This document shows, in pieces, positions 3,297-8,623 of a DNA stretch of 64,000 nucleotides. The notes below the pieces were generated by a model. That model was not told the origin of the DNA. It made no database searches and worked only from the letters and a program-made list of their open reading frames with translations. Origin of the DNA: Candidatus Rokuibacteriota bacterium (GTDB lineage Bacteria > Methylomirabilota > Methylomirabilia > Rokubacteriales > CSP1-6); assembly GCA_003220435.1 (NCBI GenBank), contig QHSL01000071.1, forward strand, positions 1 through 64,000, in the 5' to 3' direction. A program made the translations under genes and the position numbers. Numbering within the stretch: position 1 is the stretch's first letter; the number at the start of each line of letters is the position of its first letter.

Positions 3297-4148
3297 TCAA
3301 AGACGGTCCGCGTCAAGTGCTCCTGCTCGATCAGGAGGCGTGGCTCGGTCCTGCGACGCGAGATAGCGCGCCATCAGGACGAGCACCGCGAGCATGTCCA
3401 CGGCGCCGCCGAGACCCCACATGACCAGGCCGCCCAGCGACTGATCCTCTACGCTCGCGTACGCGCGATACCACGGACTCGGGCTCGAGGCCAGGAGCAG
3501 TCCGAGCAGCCCTCCTTGGAGCGCCGCGAGCACGAGATAGGCCACGCGCGCTCCGTACGACGCGGGCGGCCTCAACCTCGGGTGCGGCTGGACGATCGGC
3601 CACCAGAAGACGACGGCGCTCGCGAAGAAGGCGAGATGCTCGACGTCGTGAATCACGCGATCGCCGACCGCGGCGTCGTAGGCGATCGGCAGATGCCAGA
3701 GCCAGATCACGAGCGCCCCGACGAGCCACGCGACGGGCAACCCCGTGAGCCGGAGCCCGAGCCGGCGGAGCGGCAGCGCCGGCCTGAGCAGGTGCCCGGC
3801 GGCGGCGCGCAGCGGTGAGGGGAGGACCCAGAGGAGCGCGGCGAACGGGTCCGCCAGCAACAGCAGCGGCGCCGCGACGGCGATCAGCAACAGGTGCTGG
3901 ACCATGTGCACCGCGAAGCTCGCATGAGCCATACGATCGAGCGGCGACAACAGCGCGACGGCCAGGCTCAGAACGCCGGCGCCCGCGGCGGCGAGACGCC
4001 AGCGCGACACCGGCTCTCCGCGGCGGGCCAGTCGCGACCAGCCGATCGCATAGGCGCCTGCCACGAGCACGAGAGTCGCCGCGACCTCCGGGCGCGCGTC
4101 CCAGGCGCTCGTCGTCAGGGTCCACTCGGCGGCCGGTCCGTGAGCCAT
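3297..4148 (-). CDS. ctaG: CtaG-family cytochrome c oxidase assembly protein
   Basis: Integral membrane protein of 283 residues with about seven hydrophobic segments, of the caa3-type CtaG family (PF09678), which helps copper-oxidase assembly in the cytoplasmic membrane. Family-type histidines are visible in MAHASFAVHMVQHLLL and in LWHLPIAYDAAVGDRVIHDVEH, followed by a WWPIV membrane segment. The start at 4148 gives MAHGPAAEW; the frame stays open upstream but that stretch is not hydrophobic and overlaps other genes. The gene is 14 bp downstream of a 34-residue membrane peptide gene and closes the cbb3 oxidase operon. CtaG is more usual with caa3 oxidases, so pairing with a cbb3 set is worth noting. 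Confidence 0.88.
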   Translation of the reverse strand: MAHGPAAEWTLTTSAWDARPEVAATLVLVAGAYAIGWSRLARRGEPVSRWRLAAAGAGVLSLAVALLSPLDRMAHASFAVHMVQHLLLIAVAAPLLLLADPFAALLWVLPSPLRAAAGHLLRPALPLRRLGLRLTGLPVAWLVGALVIWLWHLPIAYDAAVGDRVIHDVEHLAFFASAVVFWWPIVQPHPRLRPPASYGARVAYLVLAALQGGLLGLLLASSPSPWYRAYASVEDQSLGGLVMWGLGGAVDMLAVLVLMARYLASQDRATPPDRAGALDADRL

Positions 4149-4162
4149 GAGGCGCCCGGGCC

Positions 4163-4267
4163 CTAGACGAGCGCCAGCAGGCCGGCGAAGACGTTGAAGA
4201 GCGCGTCGAGGAGCAGGAAGACCAGGTTCAGCAGCGCGAGCAGGATCAGGACGTGCTCTGCGCGCAT
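4163..4267 (-). CDS. 34-residue hydrophobic peptide in the oxidase operon
   Basis: A very short gene that length filters would miss. It reads ATG at 4267 to TAG at 4163, giving 34 residues that begin MRAEHVLILLALLNLVF and continue through one hydrophobic helix containing LLLDALFNVFAGLL. A clear ribosome site, TAGGAGAACGCG, lies just before the ATG. It is 9 bp after the upstream 64-residue gene and 14 bp before ctaG, so it fits the operon with no slack. Single-helix subunits of 30-40 residues are common in haem-copper oxidases (for example CcoQ- or CcoH-like roles), so an accessory oxidase subunit is the natural guess. I do not recognise the sequence itself. Confidence 0.7.
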   Translation of the reverse strand: MRAEHVLILLALLNLVFLLLDALFNVFAGLLALV

Positions 4268-4276
4268 CGCGTTCTC

Positions 4277-4471
4277 CTACTGCCCCGCGCCCAGGCCGGG
4301 ACCGAGCCCGCCCCAGTGCCGGACGAGGTAGTAGACCCCCCACACCGCCAGCACCGCGTACACGACGAGGAGCCATCGGTTGACGATTCCGCGATAGACG
4401 CGGATCTCTCCCCCGGCGTACGTCTCGACCTCGCCGTATTTGGGATGACGCTCAGGTGTCTCGTCGGTCAT
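4277..4471 (-). CDS. Small membrane protein resembling the CcoP N-terminal anchor
   Basis: A 64-residue protein with one transmembrane helix (about residues 33-50, WLLVVYAVLAVWGVYYLV) after a polar N-terminus with PKYGEVETYAGGEIRVYRG. This layout resembles the FixP_N domain that anchors CcoP of cbb3 oxidases, but here it has no haem domain attached. The haem domains expected in CcoP are instead fused to the CcoO-type gene of the same operon. The start at 4471 has GAGGAGGCCGCGC before it and overlaps the upstream gene's end by 20 nt. The link to CcoP is an inference from layout and context; sequence similarity over so short a stretch is weak. Confidence 0.6.
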   Translation of the reverse strand: MTDETPERHPKYGEVETYAGGEIRVYRGIVNRWLLVVYAVLAVWGVYYLVRHWGGLGPGLGAGQ

Positions 4472-4640
4472 GCGCGGCCTCCTCGTCGCGGTGAGCTCCT
4501 TCCACGCGAAGGACCTGGTTCTTGATCGACTCCACGCCGCGGAACGCTCCGGTCGCGGCGCCCCAGCAGAAGGCGCAGAGCGCCGCCAGGCTCATCAACA
4601 GCGCCACCACGAACTCGCCCAGCGTCAGGTGCTCGATCAC
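4452..4640 (-). CDS. CcoS-like small membrane protein of the cbb3 oxidase operon
   Basis: A 62-residue protein with one membrane helix (about residues 9-28) followed by WGAATGAFRGVESIKNQVL. That pattern, a helix then a G-x-F-x-x-x-E/D segment, is like CcoS, the small factor needed to insert cofactors into cbb3 oxidase. It starts with GTG at 4640, which overlaps the stop of the upstream CcoO fusion as GTGA, so translation is probably coupled. It overlaps the next gene by 20 nt. The CcoS assignment rests on length, position and this short pattern; a CcoQ-type subunit is the alternative. Confidence 0.6.
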   Translation of the reverse strand: MIEHLTLGEFVVALLMSLAALCAFCWGAATGAFRGVESIKNQVLRVEGAHRDEEAAHDRRDT

Positions 4641-6289
4641 TCGCGGACTCCGGGATAGAGCACGCGCGGCCTGCCGCCCGGCTCGCCCGCGAGGCTCGCC
4701 GGCTTCGCCGGATCGAGGGCGAAGCGTGGATGATCGGCCGCGACCGCGGGCGAGTTGAGCTCGGCGCGGGCGGCGGCCGGCACGTCGAGCGGCTCACCGG
4801 TGAGAGGGTCGCGCCACGCCGAAAGCGAGAGCACGTAGTACGAGATCGCCCACCGCTCCTCGTCGCTCATCGAATCCGCGAACGAGGGCATGGGCGTGCC
4901 GTCGAGCCCCAACGTCATCGTGCGGTAGACGTCACGCGCGGTCGAGCCGCCCTTGAGCTGGCCGCGGCCGAAGTCGGTCGGGCGGATCGGGAACTTCGAG
5001 TCGTCGCTGAGGCTCGACGCCGATTCGCCGTCGCCTGTGCCGGTCTCGCCGTGGCACTGGGCACACTTGGCCTTCTGGTAGAGATCCTTGCCGCGCGTGA
5101 TCAGATCGGGCGTGGCCGTCGGCGGCTCGCCGATCACCACGGGCGGCTCCGGCTTGTCGTCCTTCCACCGGCTCGAGAACGTCTTGATGTACACGATGAC
5201 GGCCATCCGCTCCTTGTCGGGGATCTCGTGCCACGTGGGCATCGCGGTCCAGCGAACACCGCGCGTCACCGTGCGATAGAGATCGCCGTCGGTCGGCAGC
5301 GACCCCGAGGGCGTCGTCCTGAACTTGAACACGCCGAGCGTGAAGTCGCGGGGACGCGGTGAGAGGAAGGTCGCCGCCGGGCCGTTGCCGTCGCCCTTGG
5401 GTCCGTGGCAGCCGACGCAGCGGGCCTGATAGACGCTTCGGCCGAGCTCCACCAGATCCACGCTGGCCGGGATCGTCATGACCGACACGCTGACCGTCTG
5501 CGGCTCGAAGACCTCGCGCCACGCGCCGCGATTCGTGCCGAGCTTCTGGATGTACTTCACCAGCCCGACCAGCTCGGCCGACGGCAGCACGAGCGTGACC
5601 GCGCTCAGCGCGGGCGGCCGGTCGCCGAAGCCCTTGAGGTCGATCACGGGCGTACCGGCGAGCGGCCACCGGCCGTCGGACGGCGGCGGCACGAACGTCA
5701 CGCCGCTCGCATTGGGATAGAGGGGAATCGGCGTCTCCGCCTTCATCGTGAAGTAGGCGCGGAGCGCCAGCGACGGGGCGAGCGCCAGGCCGTCCTCGGC
5801 CTTCGTCACGGGAACGCGGACCTGGGCGTAGAGCCACTTGAAGCTCGGCATCACGGAGTCGGGGACCACGAGGCGAGGGTCCCAGTGATGGGCGTAGTGC
5901 CAGTCGTCGCCGTACTTGAGCCCGACGCGCGTCAGGTCGGGGCCGATGCGGCGCGTCGACAGCATGTGCGGAAGATCGAAGGCGTACTCGCCGGCTTCCG
6001 ACACTGGACCCCATCGAAGCTCCTCGCCGGCCACCGGCCGCACATACTGGCTGTGGCAGTACCAGCAGCCCTCGCGGATGTAGACGGCGCGGCCCACGCG
6101 CTCGAGCGGCGTGTAATCCGTGGCGTCGTGACGGATCCACTTGACGGCGCCGAGGTCGGTCCGCACGGCTCGGCTGACCTGACGCGAGCGCGACTCCGGG
6201 ATCATCGCCGGCAGGAAGCCCTGGACGAACATGGCGAGCGTCACGCAGGCGAAGCCGGCGCCCAACGCCAGAGAGCCGACCGACCTCAT
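4637..6289 (-). CDS. cbb3 oxidase CcoO fused to two cytochrome c domains
   Basis: A 550-residue three-haem protein. One N-terminal membrane helix (about residues 5-30) is followed by the CcoO signature GCWYCHSQYVRP, with haem site Cys75-Cys78-His79. Two more c-type haem domains follow: CVGCHGPKGDGNGP at 291-295 and CAQCHGETGTGDGE at 409-413, each with methionine-bearing stretches downstream (WTAMPTWH and GTPMPSFAD). In typical cbb3 oxidases CcoO carries one haem and a separate CcoP carries two; here the three are on one chain, so it would pass electrons to CcoN on its own. It starts with ATG at 6289, overlapping the ccoN stop as ATGA. Confidence 0.9.
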   Translation of the reverse strand: MRSVGSLALGAGFACVTLAMFVQGFLPAMIPESRSRQVSRAVRTDLGAVKWIRHDATDYTPLERVGRAVYIREGCWYCHSQYVRPVAGEELRWGPVSEAGEYAFDLPHMLSTRRIGPDLTRVGLKYGDDWHYAHHWDPRLVVPDSVMPSFKWLYAQVRVPVTKAEDGLALAPSLALRAYFTMKAETPIPLYPNASGVTFVPPPSDGRWPLAGTPVIDLKGFGDRPPALSAVTLVLPSAELVGLVKYIQKLGTNRGAWREVFEPQTVSVSVMTIPASVDLVELGRSVYQARCVGCHGPKGDGNGPAATFLSPRPRDFTLGVFKFRTTPSGSLPTDGDLYRTVTRGVRWTAMPTWHEIPDKERMAVIVYIKTFSSRWKDDKPEPPVVIGEPPTATPDLITRGKDLYQKAKCAQCHGETGTGDGESASSLSDDSKFPIRPTDFGRGQLKGGSTARDVYRTMTLGLDGTPMPSFADSMSDEERWAISYYVLSLSAWRDPLTGEPLDVPAAARAELNSPAVAADHPRFALDPAKPASLAGEPGGRPRVLYPGVRE

Positions 6290-7650
6290 CGCGCCCGGCT
6301 CTCCGTCGGGCTCGTGGCCAGCGACGTCTTCATGAGGGTGTAGACGAGCAGCGAGATCCCGACGTCCATCGAGATGCCGGTGAACGTGCGCAGCCACCAG
6401 TACGGCCGGATCGCATTGACGGAATGGACCCACTCCGTGCCGGCCATCAGCATGAAGCCCTGCTGGAGGCCCTGGGCTGCCAGCAGCACGCCCATGGTCG
6501 AGATGCCCAGCGTCACCAGCCAGAAGCCCCAGTTCCCGACGCGGAAGCTCCACAGCGGCGCGTCATCGGCCAGGCGCGGCCAGACGTAGAGCGTGCCGCC
6601 GATCGCCCACACCACGAACGTGCCGAACACCGTGAGGTGCGAGTGCGAGATGACGAAGTCGGTGAAGTGCGTCGGCTGCTGGATCGAGCGCAGCGCTTCG
6701 ACCGAGCCCTGGAAGCAGCCGACCAGGTAGATCACCGATCCCACGATGAGGAACTTGGCCGGTAGGTTCCGCGGGAACTCCTGCCAGCGGCCGATCATGG
6801 TCCCGAAGAAGTTCTGGAGCACCGTCCAGACCGGGATGATCAGCATCATCGAGGAGACGATCGCGATCGTCTCGGCCCAGTCGGCGATCGGCGAGTAGAG
6901 ATAGTGGTGGATGCCCACGAACGGGTAGAAGAACGCGAGCGACCAGAAGCCGATCAGCGACAGCTTGTGGCTGTAGATCGGGTTCCGCACGGCCGCTGGC
7001 AGGAAGTAGTAGATGAGGACGTAGCCCGCCGGCGTGATCCAGAGGCCGACCACGTAGTGGATGAAGAGGCCGTGCCACGCCGCGTTGTTGATGCCGGGGA
7101 TGTGATAGGGGCCGAGGATCAGCAGCACGAGGTTCACGTCGGTCCACACGAACGCGGCGATGAGGTACCAGAGCGACACGTAGAGGGGTCGCTCTCGCCG
7201 GGATCGGATCGTCATCAGGAACTGGACGGTGAGCTGAAGGAGCGCCAGGAGCGTCACGATGACGTTGACGAGCGGCAACTCGCCCGCCTCCCAGCCGCGA
7301 TTCCAGCCGAGCGCCAAGAGTATGACGACGACCGCCAGGTTCAGGTTCCACACCCACAGGAGCGCGTAGCTCCAGCGCTCCTGCCAGATGCGGACGCCGG
7401 TGAGCCGCGGGACGACGTAGTGGCAGAGCCCGATGAAGAGCGTCGAGAAGCCGCCCCAGATCACGCCGTTGACGTGGATCGGGCGGAGGCGTCCGAACGT
7501 GAGCCACGCGGTGTCGCCCAGGAACTCGGGATAGTTGAACTTGGTCGAGACGAGCACGCCGATGGACGGAAACAGCAGCAGCCAGGCCAGCCCCGACACC
7601 AGCCACTTGCGGACCAGGTCCGCGTTGATCAGGTCGTCGTTCTGCGTCAC
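6286..7650 (-). CDS. ccoN: cbb3-type cytochrome c oxidase catalytic subunit (CcoN)
   Basis: Haem-copper oxidase subunit I of 454 residues with about twelve membrane helices; it reduces oxygen to water at a haem b3-CuB centre. Ligand-type histidines are visible in LRPIHVNGVIWG, IGLCHYVV, AWHGLFIHYVVGLW, FVGIHHYLYSP and VISHSHLTVFG, the pattern of the cbb3 class. I place the start at GTG 7650; the frame is open upstream but has no ribosome site at useful distance. Instead TATCCT lies 6 nt before the GTG, suggesting a leaderless message. It is the first gene of the oxidase operon and is divergent from an ABC permease 58 bp away. Confidence 0.92.
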   Translation of the reverse strand: MTQNDDLINADLVRKWLVSGLAWLLLFPSIGVLVSTKFNYPEFLGDTAWLTFGRLRPIHVNGVIWGGFSTLFIGLCHYVVPRLTGVRIWQERWSYALLWVWNLNLAVVVILLALGWNRGWEAGELPLVNVIVTLLALLQLTVQFLMTIRSRRERPLYVSLWYLIAAFVWTDVNLVLLILGPYHIPGINNAAWHGLFIHYVVGLWITPAGYVLIYYFLPAAVRNPIYSHKLSLIGFWSLAFFYPFVGIHHYLYSPIADWAETIAIVSSMMLIIPVWTVLQNFFGTMIGRWQEFPRNLPAKFLIVGSVIYLVGCFQGSVEALRSIQQPTHFTDFVISHSHLTVFGTFVVWAIGGTLYVWPRLADDAPLWSFRVGNWGFWLVTLGISTMGVLLAAQGLQQGFMLMAGTEWVHSVNAIRPYWWLRTFTGISMDVGISLLVYTLMKTSLATSPTESRAR

Positions 7651-7708: not shown

Positions 7709-8623
7709 GTGCGAGCGGAGCACGTCGTCATGGCGGGTGCGGTCCTGGCCCTGCTCGTTCTGGTGATGCTACCGCTGGCTTTCCTGGTCTGGGGCAGTGT
7801 GACCACCGGCGACGGCGTCACCCTCGCTCACTTCCGCGACGCGCTCAGCAGCCGGCTCTACCTGACCGCCCTCCGCAATTCGCTCGTCCTGGGCCTCTGG
7901 ACGGCGGTGTTGAGTATCGCCATCGGCCTGCCGCTTGCCTGGGTCGTGAGCCGGACGAACGCGCCGGCCCGGCGGTTCGTCCACCTGTCGGCGGTCGTGT
8001 CCTACCTCACGCCGCCGTTCCTGACGGATCGCGTTCGTGAACCTGTTCAGCCCGAACGCGGGCCTGGTCAACCGCTTCGTCCGCGACGTGCTCGGGCTGG
8101 ACGCGCTGACCTTCAACGTCTTCTCGATGGCCGGCCTCGTCCTCGTCACCGTGCCCCACACGTTCCCGTTCGTGTACCTGCTCACGGCGAGCGCCCTCGA
8201 GTCGGTCGACGCGTCCATGGAGGAGTCTACGTCCCGCTCGGGGTGCGCTCGGCCAACGCGGCGTTCCGCCAGATCGACCCGTCCCTGGAGGAGACCGCGC
8301 GGGTGACCGGCGCCGGGTGGCTGCGCACCTTCACGGCCGTCACGCTGCCGCTGGCGCGCCCGGGGCTCTTCGCCGGGTGGCTCCTCGTCTTCGTGCCGGC
8401 GCTCCAGGAGCTCTCCGCCTCGATCCTCCTCTTCAGCTCGGGCTCGATCACCCTCGCGGTCGCCGTCTACAACCTCTACGAGACCGGGGCGCTGGAGCCA
8501 GTGGCTGCTCTGGCCATCGTCACGATGCTGATCATCACCGCGGCGATCGCGCTCGCCGGCCGGCTCGGGCGGGGCTCGGCAAGTGTCCCGCGGCGGGGGA
8601 CCGGTCTAGAATCAGCCCAATGA
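7709..8623 (+). pseudogene. ABC transporter permease (iron/polyamine type), frame-disrupted and internally deleted
   Basis: Reads as a 304-codon open frame, but only its two ends make sense. Codons up to about 8030 encode the first half of an FbpB-type permease (helices and a SYLTPPFLT segment). From about 8030 to 8222 the true reading is in another frame: NLFSPNAGLVNRFV through FPFVYLLTASALESVDAS. At 8222 the original frame resumes with VPLGVRSANAAFRQIDPSLEE and LPLARPGLFAGWLLVF, which is the EAA loop of the second permease domain. Normal members have two full domains, about 560 residues. So roughly 250 residues between the first and second EAA loops are gone, and the frame changes twice. 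It heads a group that includes an intact ATPase gene at 9527. An assembly fault is the alternative to real decay. Confidence 0.82.
8607..8612 (+). promoter_or_regulatory. Candidate -10 box before a four-codon minigene
   Basis: TAGAAT, then 7 nt, then ATG at 8620. It lies inside the end of the permease frame. It has the same form and spacing as the box at 7696, and would give a message starting at the ATG of MKTL. Confidence 0.4.

Follow-up and report, generated by a model that had tools for sequence, protein, structure and literature searches.

A conserved gene for a 34-residue membrane peptide, p34, accompanies one clade of cbb3-type oxidases

A short frame lying within an operon for a haem-copper oxidase is, close to certainly, a genuine gene, here called p34, which co-occurs with one oxidase clade spanning several phyla and whose reading frame is under purifying selection. 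On the best reading of these data p34 would encode a new minor subunit, or a dedicated assembly subunit, of that clade, and of the two the former is the likelier.

The p34 gene and its operon

The operon occupies the minus strand of the window, by which we mean the whole stretch of 64,000 nucleotides that was analysed (contig C57 of a 5.4 Mb genome, G000), and its genes follow one another in the order CcoN-like, CcoO fusion, p62, p64, p34 and CtaG:

6286-7650, minus strand: CcoN-like catalytic subunit of a C-family haem-copper oxidase, GTG start (PF00115, 6.5e-69; 3mk7_A, E 3.2e-48)
4637-6289, minus strand: CcoO fused to two C-terminal cytochrome c domains (PF02433, 5e-44; PF13442, 6.8e-24, two stretches)
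4452-4640, minus strand: p62, CcoS-like, 62 residues, GTG start (TIGR00847 ccoS, E 0.0015, under the cut-off; PF03597 FixS, E 0.049)
4277-4471, minus strand: p64, CcoP membrane-anchor-like (FixP_N-like), 64 residues (PF14715, E 0.012, under the curated cut-off)
4274-4279, minus strand: TAGGAG ribosome site, read in the sequence, sharing its TAG with the p64 stop codon
4163-4267, minus strand: p34, gene for a predicted single-helix membrane protein of 34 residues (ATG to TAG frame, homologues, omega 0.225)
3297-4148, minus strand: CtaG, caa3-type assembly factor, next downstream of p34 (PF09678, 6.6e-53)

The first-pass annotation had placed a frame at 4163-4267, with gaps of 9 and 14 bp on its two sides and TAGGAG ahead of its ATG, and it was correct in each of these particulars: the frame reads on the minus strand as 34 codons beginning with ATG and closed by TAG, 9 bp separate it from the end of p64 (4277) and 14 bp from the ATG of CtaG (4148), and TAGGAG is found at 4279-4274. 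The TAG of this motif doubles as the stop codon of p64, so that the ribosome site reaches back into the upstream gene; AGTAGGAG precedes the p34 start in seven of the nine copies from the same genus. A frame of this size would by itself be unsurprising, because the DNA is GC-rich and short frames are common in it (the ORF listing holds 88 of at least 25 aa in 9.5 kb of the window), and it is conservation that decides.

The catalytic subunit matches solved cbb3 subunits (9g6b, E 1.6e-49; 3mk7, E 3.2e-48). Its H59, H198, H248, H249, H336 and H338, which we take to include the ligands, align with His residues of P. stutzeri CcoN, its Y242, at the place of the catalytic Tyr, aligns with Y251 of that protein, and none of these positions varies among the 16 sequences that make up our CcoN alignment, A1. 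With 205.8 bits it does not reach the TIGR00780 ccoN equivalog cut-off of 583, and judged by its sequence it belongs to a divergent clade of the C-family (cbb3-type). Q314 of the same protein is also invariant in the 16 A1 sequences, and the phmmer alignment pairs it with E323 of P. stutzeri CcoN. Beside the operon, an ABC-type permease-like gene at 7709-8623 on the plus strand has shifted frames around 8030-8240; it is either a pseudogene or the product of an assembly error.

Three CXXCH motifs can be read from the translation of the CcoO fusion (4637-6289), and CcoP appears to have been dismantled in this clade, its c-type haem domains having been joined to CcoO while p64 would be what is left of the anchor. 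PF14715 (FixP_N) matches 12 of the 16 aligned p64 members at E 1 or better (best 5e-5), and comparison of p64 by hhalign with the second helix of Pseudomonas CcoP returned P 1e-4 and a probability of 57.8. Searches of the PDB gave no significant CcoP match for the p64 material (8smr_G at E 0.35), and with the p64 profile a photosystem II chain (E 0.68) outranked CcoP 9g83_v (E 1.1), so that the link between p64 and CcoP rests on the Pfam matches and hhalign. p34, together with a second tiny gene, p30, in most relatives, would complete a set of tiny helices.

Conservation, distribution and selection

The survey of the window's family, in which 57 genomes were searched with CcoN and 28 regions were fetched from 27 relatives, yielded 30 copies of the operon in 28 genomes, counting the window and the two copies in each of G020 and G078. 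A p34 homologue of 32-36 residues stands directly behind p64 in 29 of the 30, with in-frame starts that comprise 19 ATG, 8 GTG and 2 CTG. The sole exception is the operon of G018 (L067, which appears as L101 in the collection scan below), and since this genome has the clade operon without p34, the peptide is not strictly essential. The first-pass annotation had named loss of the frame or of its start in relatives as grounds for refutation, and p34 withstood this test: frame, start, position and amino-acid pattern are kept both in the family and far beyond it. It had also suggested searching beside ctaG, but p34 goes with the oxidase genes and with p64, and not with ctaG. The latter was not found in one family copy (L061b) and matched only partially in another (L065), so that a position between p64 and ctaG fails to describe these two. 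G020 has two copies of the oxidase operon (L061 at G020:C22), and G078 (L064, L065) has three CcoN places, one of them cut by a contig end.

A further p34 copy, of 31 residues and likewise behind p64, occurs in another family of the class (G046). Across the phylum (95 genomes), the p34 profile gave strong matches, at E 6.8e-8 or better, in 28 genomes, namely 27 of the 28 that have the same CcoN clade (E below 1e-200) and G002, whose oxidase operon is cut at a contig end; most of these copies were already in the profile, and the informative part of the search is the absence of p34 elsewhere. The remaining five matches in the phylum, at E 0.002-0.09, fall in frames of 161-658 residues.

More widely, a collection of genome contigs was scanned with the CcoN alignment, and the best 80 of 123 candidate loci were retained. 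They divide into an inner clade of 65 loci with a CcoN identity of at least 60% and an outer one of 15 loci at 53-56%, the latter from Nitrospira, Manganitrophus, Acidobacteria and others. Five inner-clade contigs end too early, and the 60 that are covered comprise 21 from the window's family and 39 from outside it. Among these best 80 of 123 candidates, p34 is present in 59 of the 60 covered inner-clade loci, a figure that describes the oxidase-linked set because the loci were found via CcoN (free-standing p34 was sought in the phylum genomes only), and in 58 of the 60 it lies within 400 nt behind p64; in L136, p34 and p30 are displaced by about 0.85 kb further on, and in L131 the match is weak (E 0.011). 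From the 15 outer-clade loci of the same best 80 of 123 it is absent throughout, no frame there matching better than E 4.4.

Some sequences in the profile used for this count had come from these very loci at an earlier stage, and a held-out test was therefore made, in which a profile of the 29 family copies alone was run against 11394 six-frame frames from 42 other loci. Of the 40 loci that have p64, 36 gave their best match no more than 400 nt behind it. As to the other four, the copy in L136 is the displaced one (E 4.7e-6), the contig of L124 ends, and L121 and L131 were missed, it taking the wider profile to recover their copies. Matches at E below 1 numbered 35 in the expected place, with the displaced one of L136 in addition; no false match came before E 4.0. 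By record title, the taxa of the p34 clade include Sinorhizobium, Bradyrhizobium, Mesorhizobium, Cupriavidus, Thiocapsa, SAR324, Gemmatimonadetes and Tectomicrobia/Entotheonella, and the proteobacterial titles in the scan include Alpha-, Beta-, Gamma- and Deltaproteobacteria.

The comparison of synonymous with nonsynonymous change, likewise proposed at the outset, reveals purifying selection in two sets of sequences. First, an MG codon model fitted on the CcoO-protein tree to the 29 family copies (32 codons) gave an omega of 0.225, with lnL -1749.8 as against -1823.0 when omega was fixed at 1; Fitch steps per site were 4.88, 2.78 and 6.12 at codon positions 1-3, and none of 20000 within-codon permutations was as extreme in its third-position excess. 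Second, 36 copies from outside the family, analysed on their own CcoN tree, gave an omega of 0.217 (lnL -2609.9 vs -2721.4) and Fitch steps per site of 8.53, 4.17 and 11.7, again with 0 of 20000 permutations as extreme; these copies were picked by profile, which favours conserved ones, and one of them (L088) belongs to the same class as the window. The pooled NG86 pN/pS of p34, a simpler measure, is less favourable to this reading, at only 0.66 within the genus and 0.75 for the 29 copies together; the codon-model test took its place.

The predicted helix and its possible role

In the 66 aligned members p34 is 30-40 residues long (median 34). AlphaFold2, given the peptide alone, predicts one helix from residue 3 to 33 at a mean pLDDT of 93.1, and conservation is concentrated at L18 (66 of 66), N25 (61), N14 (59) and D/E21 (55). 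The conservation moment is maximal at 100 degrees, with 11 of 20000 shuffles as large, and on the predicted helix N14, L18, E/D21 and N25 make one stripe. Such a conserved polar stripe in a membrane helix suggests packing against another protein. R or K is found among the first eight residues in 65 of the 66 rows and among the last eight in 21; the basic end of a membrane helix stays inside according to the positive-inside rule, by which the N-terminus of p34 is probably inside as well. That the sequence matches no known family, as had been remarked at first sight, is borne out by the searches of Pfam and NCBIfam, which gave weak matches of one p34 member each (best E 0.031 and 0.024), and of the PDB, in which the p34 profile drew no chain at an E value of up to 10, power being low for a profile of 33 positions.

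The idea of a separate gene for a peptide of the minor-oxidase type thus gains support from conservation within and outside the family and from co-occurrence with the clade, and from these we infer its subunit status. p34 is probably a minor subunit of a distinct clade of cbb3-type oxygen reductases, which would stabilise or assemble the complex through its conserved stripe. Its translation from the oxidase mRNA would depend on re-initiation or on coupling where p64 ends. The product would span the membrane as a single helix, and this helix, docked on the CcoN/CcoO/p64 core via the N14-L18-E/D21-N25 stripe, would aid the assembly or stability of the complex.

Alternatively, p34 could be a dedicated assembly or copper/haem-insertion helper of the kind of CcoS or CcoH that stays outside the finished enzyme, a tentative possibility that draws on the CcoS-like gene and CtaG among its neighbours and on the SCO, hemA, TauE/SafE and P-type ATPase genes added in rhizobial clusters. 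However, p34 has no conserved Cys, His or Met beyond its start Met, and permanent packing fits the fixed helix stripe at least as well. More doubtful still is a further-reaching form of the subunit reading, in which p34 would be a hallmark functional subunit whose buried E/D21, flanked by N14 and N25, takes part in a proton or O2 route or in gating, and not in packing alone; in this form, too, CcoP would have been dismantled.

That p34 is a diverged version of a small oxidase subunit already named, namely CcoM, CcoQ/FixQ or subunit IIa, we consider improbable, even though it is of the same size class and predicted to form a single helix. CcoM, the small subunit of the C-family enzyme of P. stutzeri (PDB 5djq, chain N), comes closest in length, with 36 residues as against 34. 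ccoM lies outside the oxidase operon, whereas p34 is encoded inside it, and the basic end is the C-terminus in CcoM and the N-terminus in p34. Resemblance to CcoM was found to be unsupported by the PDB search, in which 5djq_N was present in the set and unmatched by the p34 profile at E 10, and by profile comparison, in which no similarity was detected (hhalign probability 0.1), helices this short affording low power in both. CcoQ/FixQ (PF05545) is, like p34, a small protein encoded among cbb3 genes, and forms a single helix, but PF05545 matches 0 of the 66 p34 members at E 1. Subunit IIa of the ba3-type oxidases has 34 residues and one helix in Thermus, and its gene is easily missed in oxidase operons; it belongs, however, to the B-family and not to the C-family.

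More improbable still is that p34 is a regulatory or leader peptide of little importance in its sequence, which would couple p64 to the next gene. The spacing is tight, and 11 of the 29 copies begin inside p64, with an overlap of 4 nt, yet selection acts at the amino-acid level in two sets of sequences, the intramembrane Asn, Glu/Asp and Leu are kept, and the downstream genes vary between lineages. A chance open frame in GC-rich DNA, for which the abundance of frames of this length in the window might speak, is refuted by conservation, selection and co-occurrence.

Two small proteins named in PMC10117765 can be likened to p34 by description. SEP20 of Sinorhizobium meliloti is small, has a predicted helix and is encoded in a cytochrome oxidase operon, and its presence was shown by a Western blot and a single matching peptide; it differs from p34 in lying between ctaB and ctaG of the ctaCDBGE cluster, which is another operon. 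CydX is required by the cytochrome bd terminal oxidase, an enzyme unrelated to the one discussed here. Among the matches listed, titles and abstract openings on cbb3 oxidases and small subunits describe neither p34 nor p30.

The second tiny gene and the rhizobial plasmids

p30 (in L053, for example, at 3575-3664) encodes a hydrophobic peptide of about 30 residues, and in most relatives, some of them from other phyla, it comes after p34; its M1 and W22 are invariant in 43 aligned sequences. Of the 30 family copies, 21 have it whole, three have it in altered form (shortened in L054, without the usual start in L055, cut short in L060) and six lack it, including the window, which has no p30 at 4149-4162, the position behind p34. 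Elsewhere in the window's genome the search for p30 gave nothing convincing, its best match (E 1.8) lying in a frame of 283 residues. At the chosen position and threshold p30 is found in 49 of the 60 covered inner-clade loci (of the best 80 of 123 candidates), to which L136 is to be added, and in four loci (L112, L113, L132 and L143) it shares a single open frame with p64. PF05545 (CcoQ/FixQ) weakly matches one of the 43 p30 members (E 0.32). The proposal to derive p30 from the first helix of the two-helix Pseudomonas CcoP, as a piece come loose, was dropped: profile comparison gave a non-significant P of 0.14, and the order contradicts it too, p30 coming after p64 in the fusions.

p34 and p30 are tied to one oxidase clade, members of which, such as Sinorhizobium, Bradyrhizobium and Cupriavidus, can be cultivated. 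Genes as short as p34 tend to be passed over in annotation. Small genes missed in this way are a theme of PMC10433244 and PMC10117765. In three plasmid records, two from Sinorhizobium meliloti and one from Phyllobacterium, the p34 frame falls in an unannotated gap, and since p34 is unlisted in these three plasmid annotations, whose gene table is incomplete, the subunit list of the oxidase clade may be incomplete as well. When plasmids were searched by tblastn with the S. meliloti p34 as query, nothing was returned, not even its own record, though the frame is present there, which reflects the limit of 30-residue queries.

A 40-residue "hypothetical protein" occupies the position of p30 in two of the three plasmid stretches; the p30 profile matches L171 weakly (E 0.34) and leaves L170 unmatched at E 1. 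For ctaG there was no match in the rhizobial loci, nor is it listed in the three annotated stretches, where TauE/SafE and P-type ATPase genes take its place and SCO, hemA and groEL genes are listed besides. The oxidase clade is found on pSymA of S. meliloti and on other large rhizobial plasmids, 38 plasmid records having been matched and three loci (L170, L171 and L172) examined.
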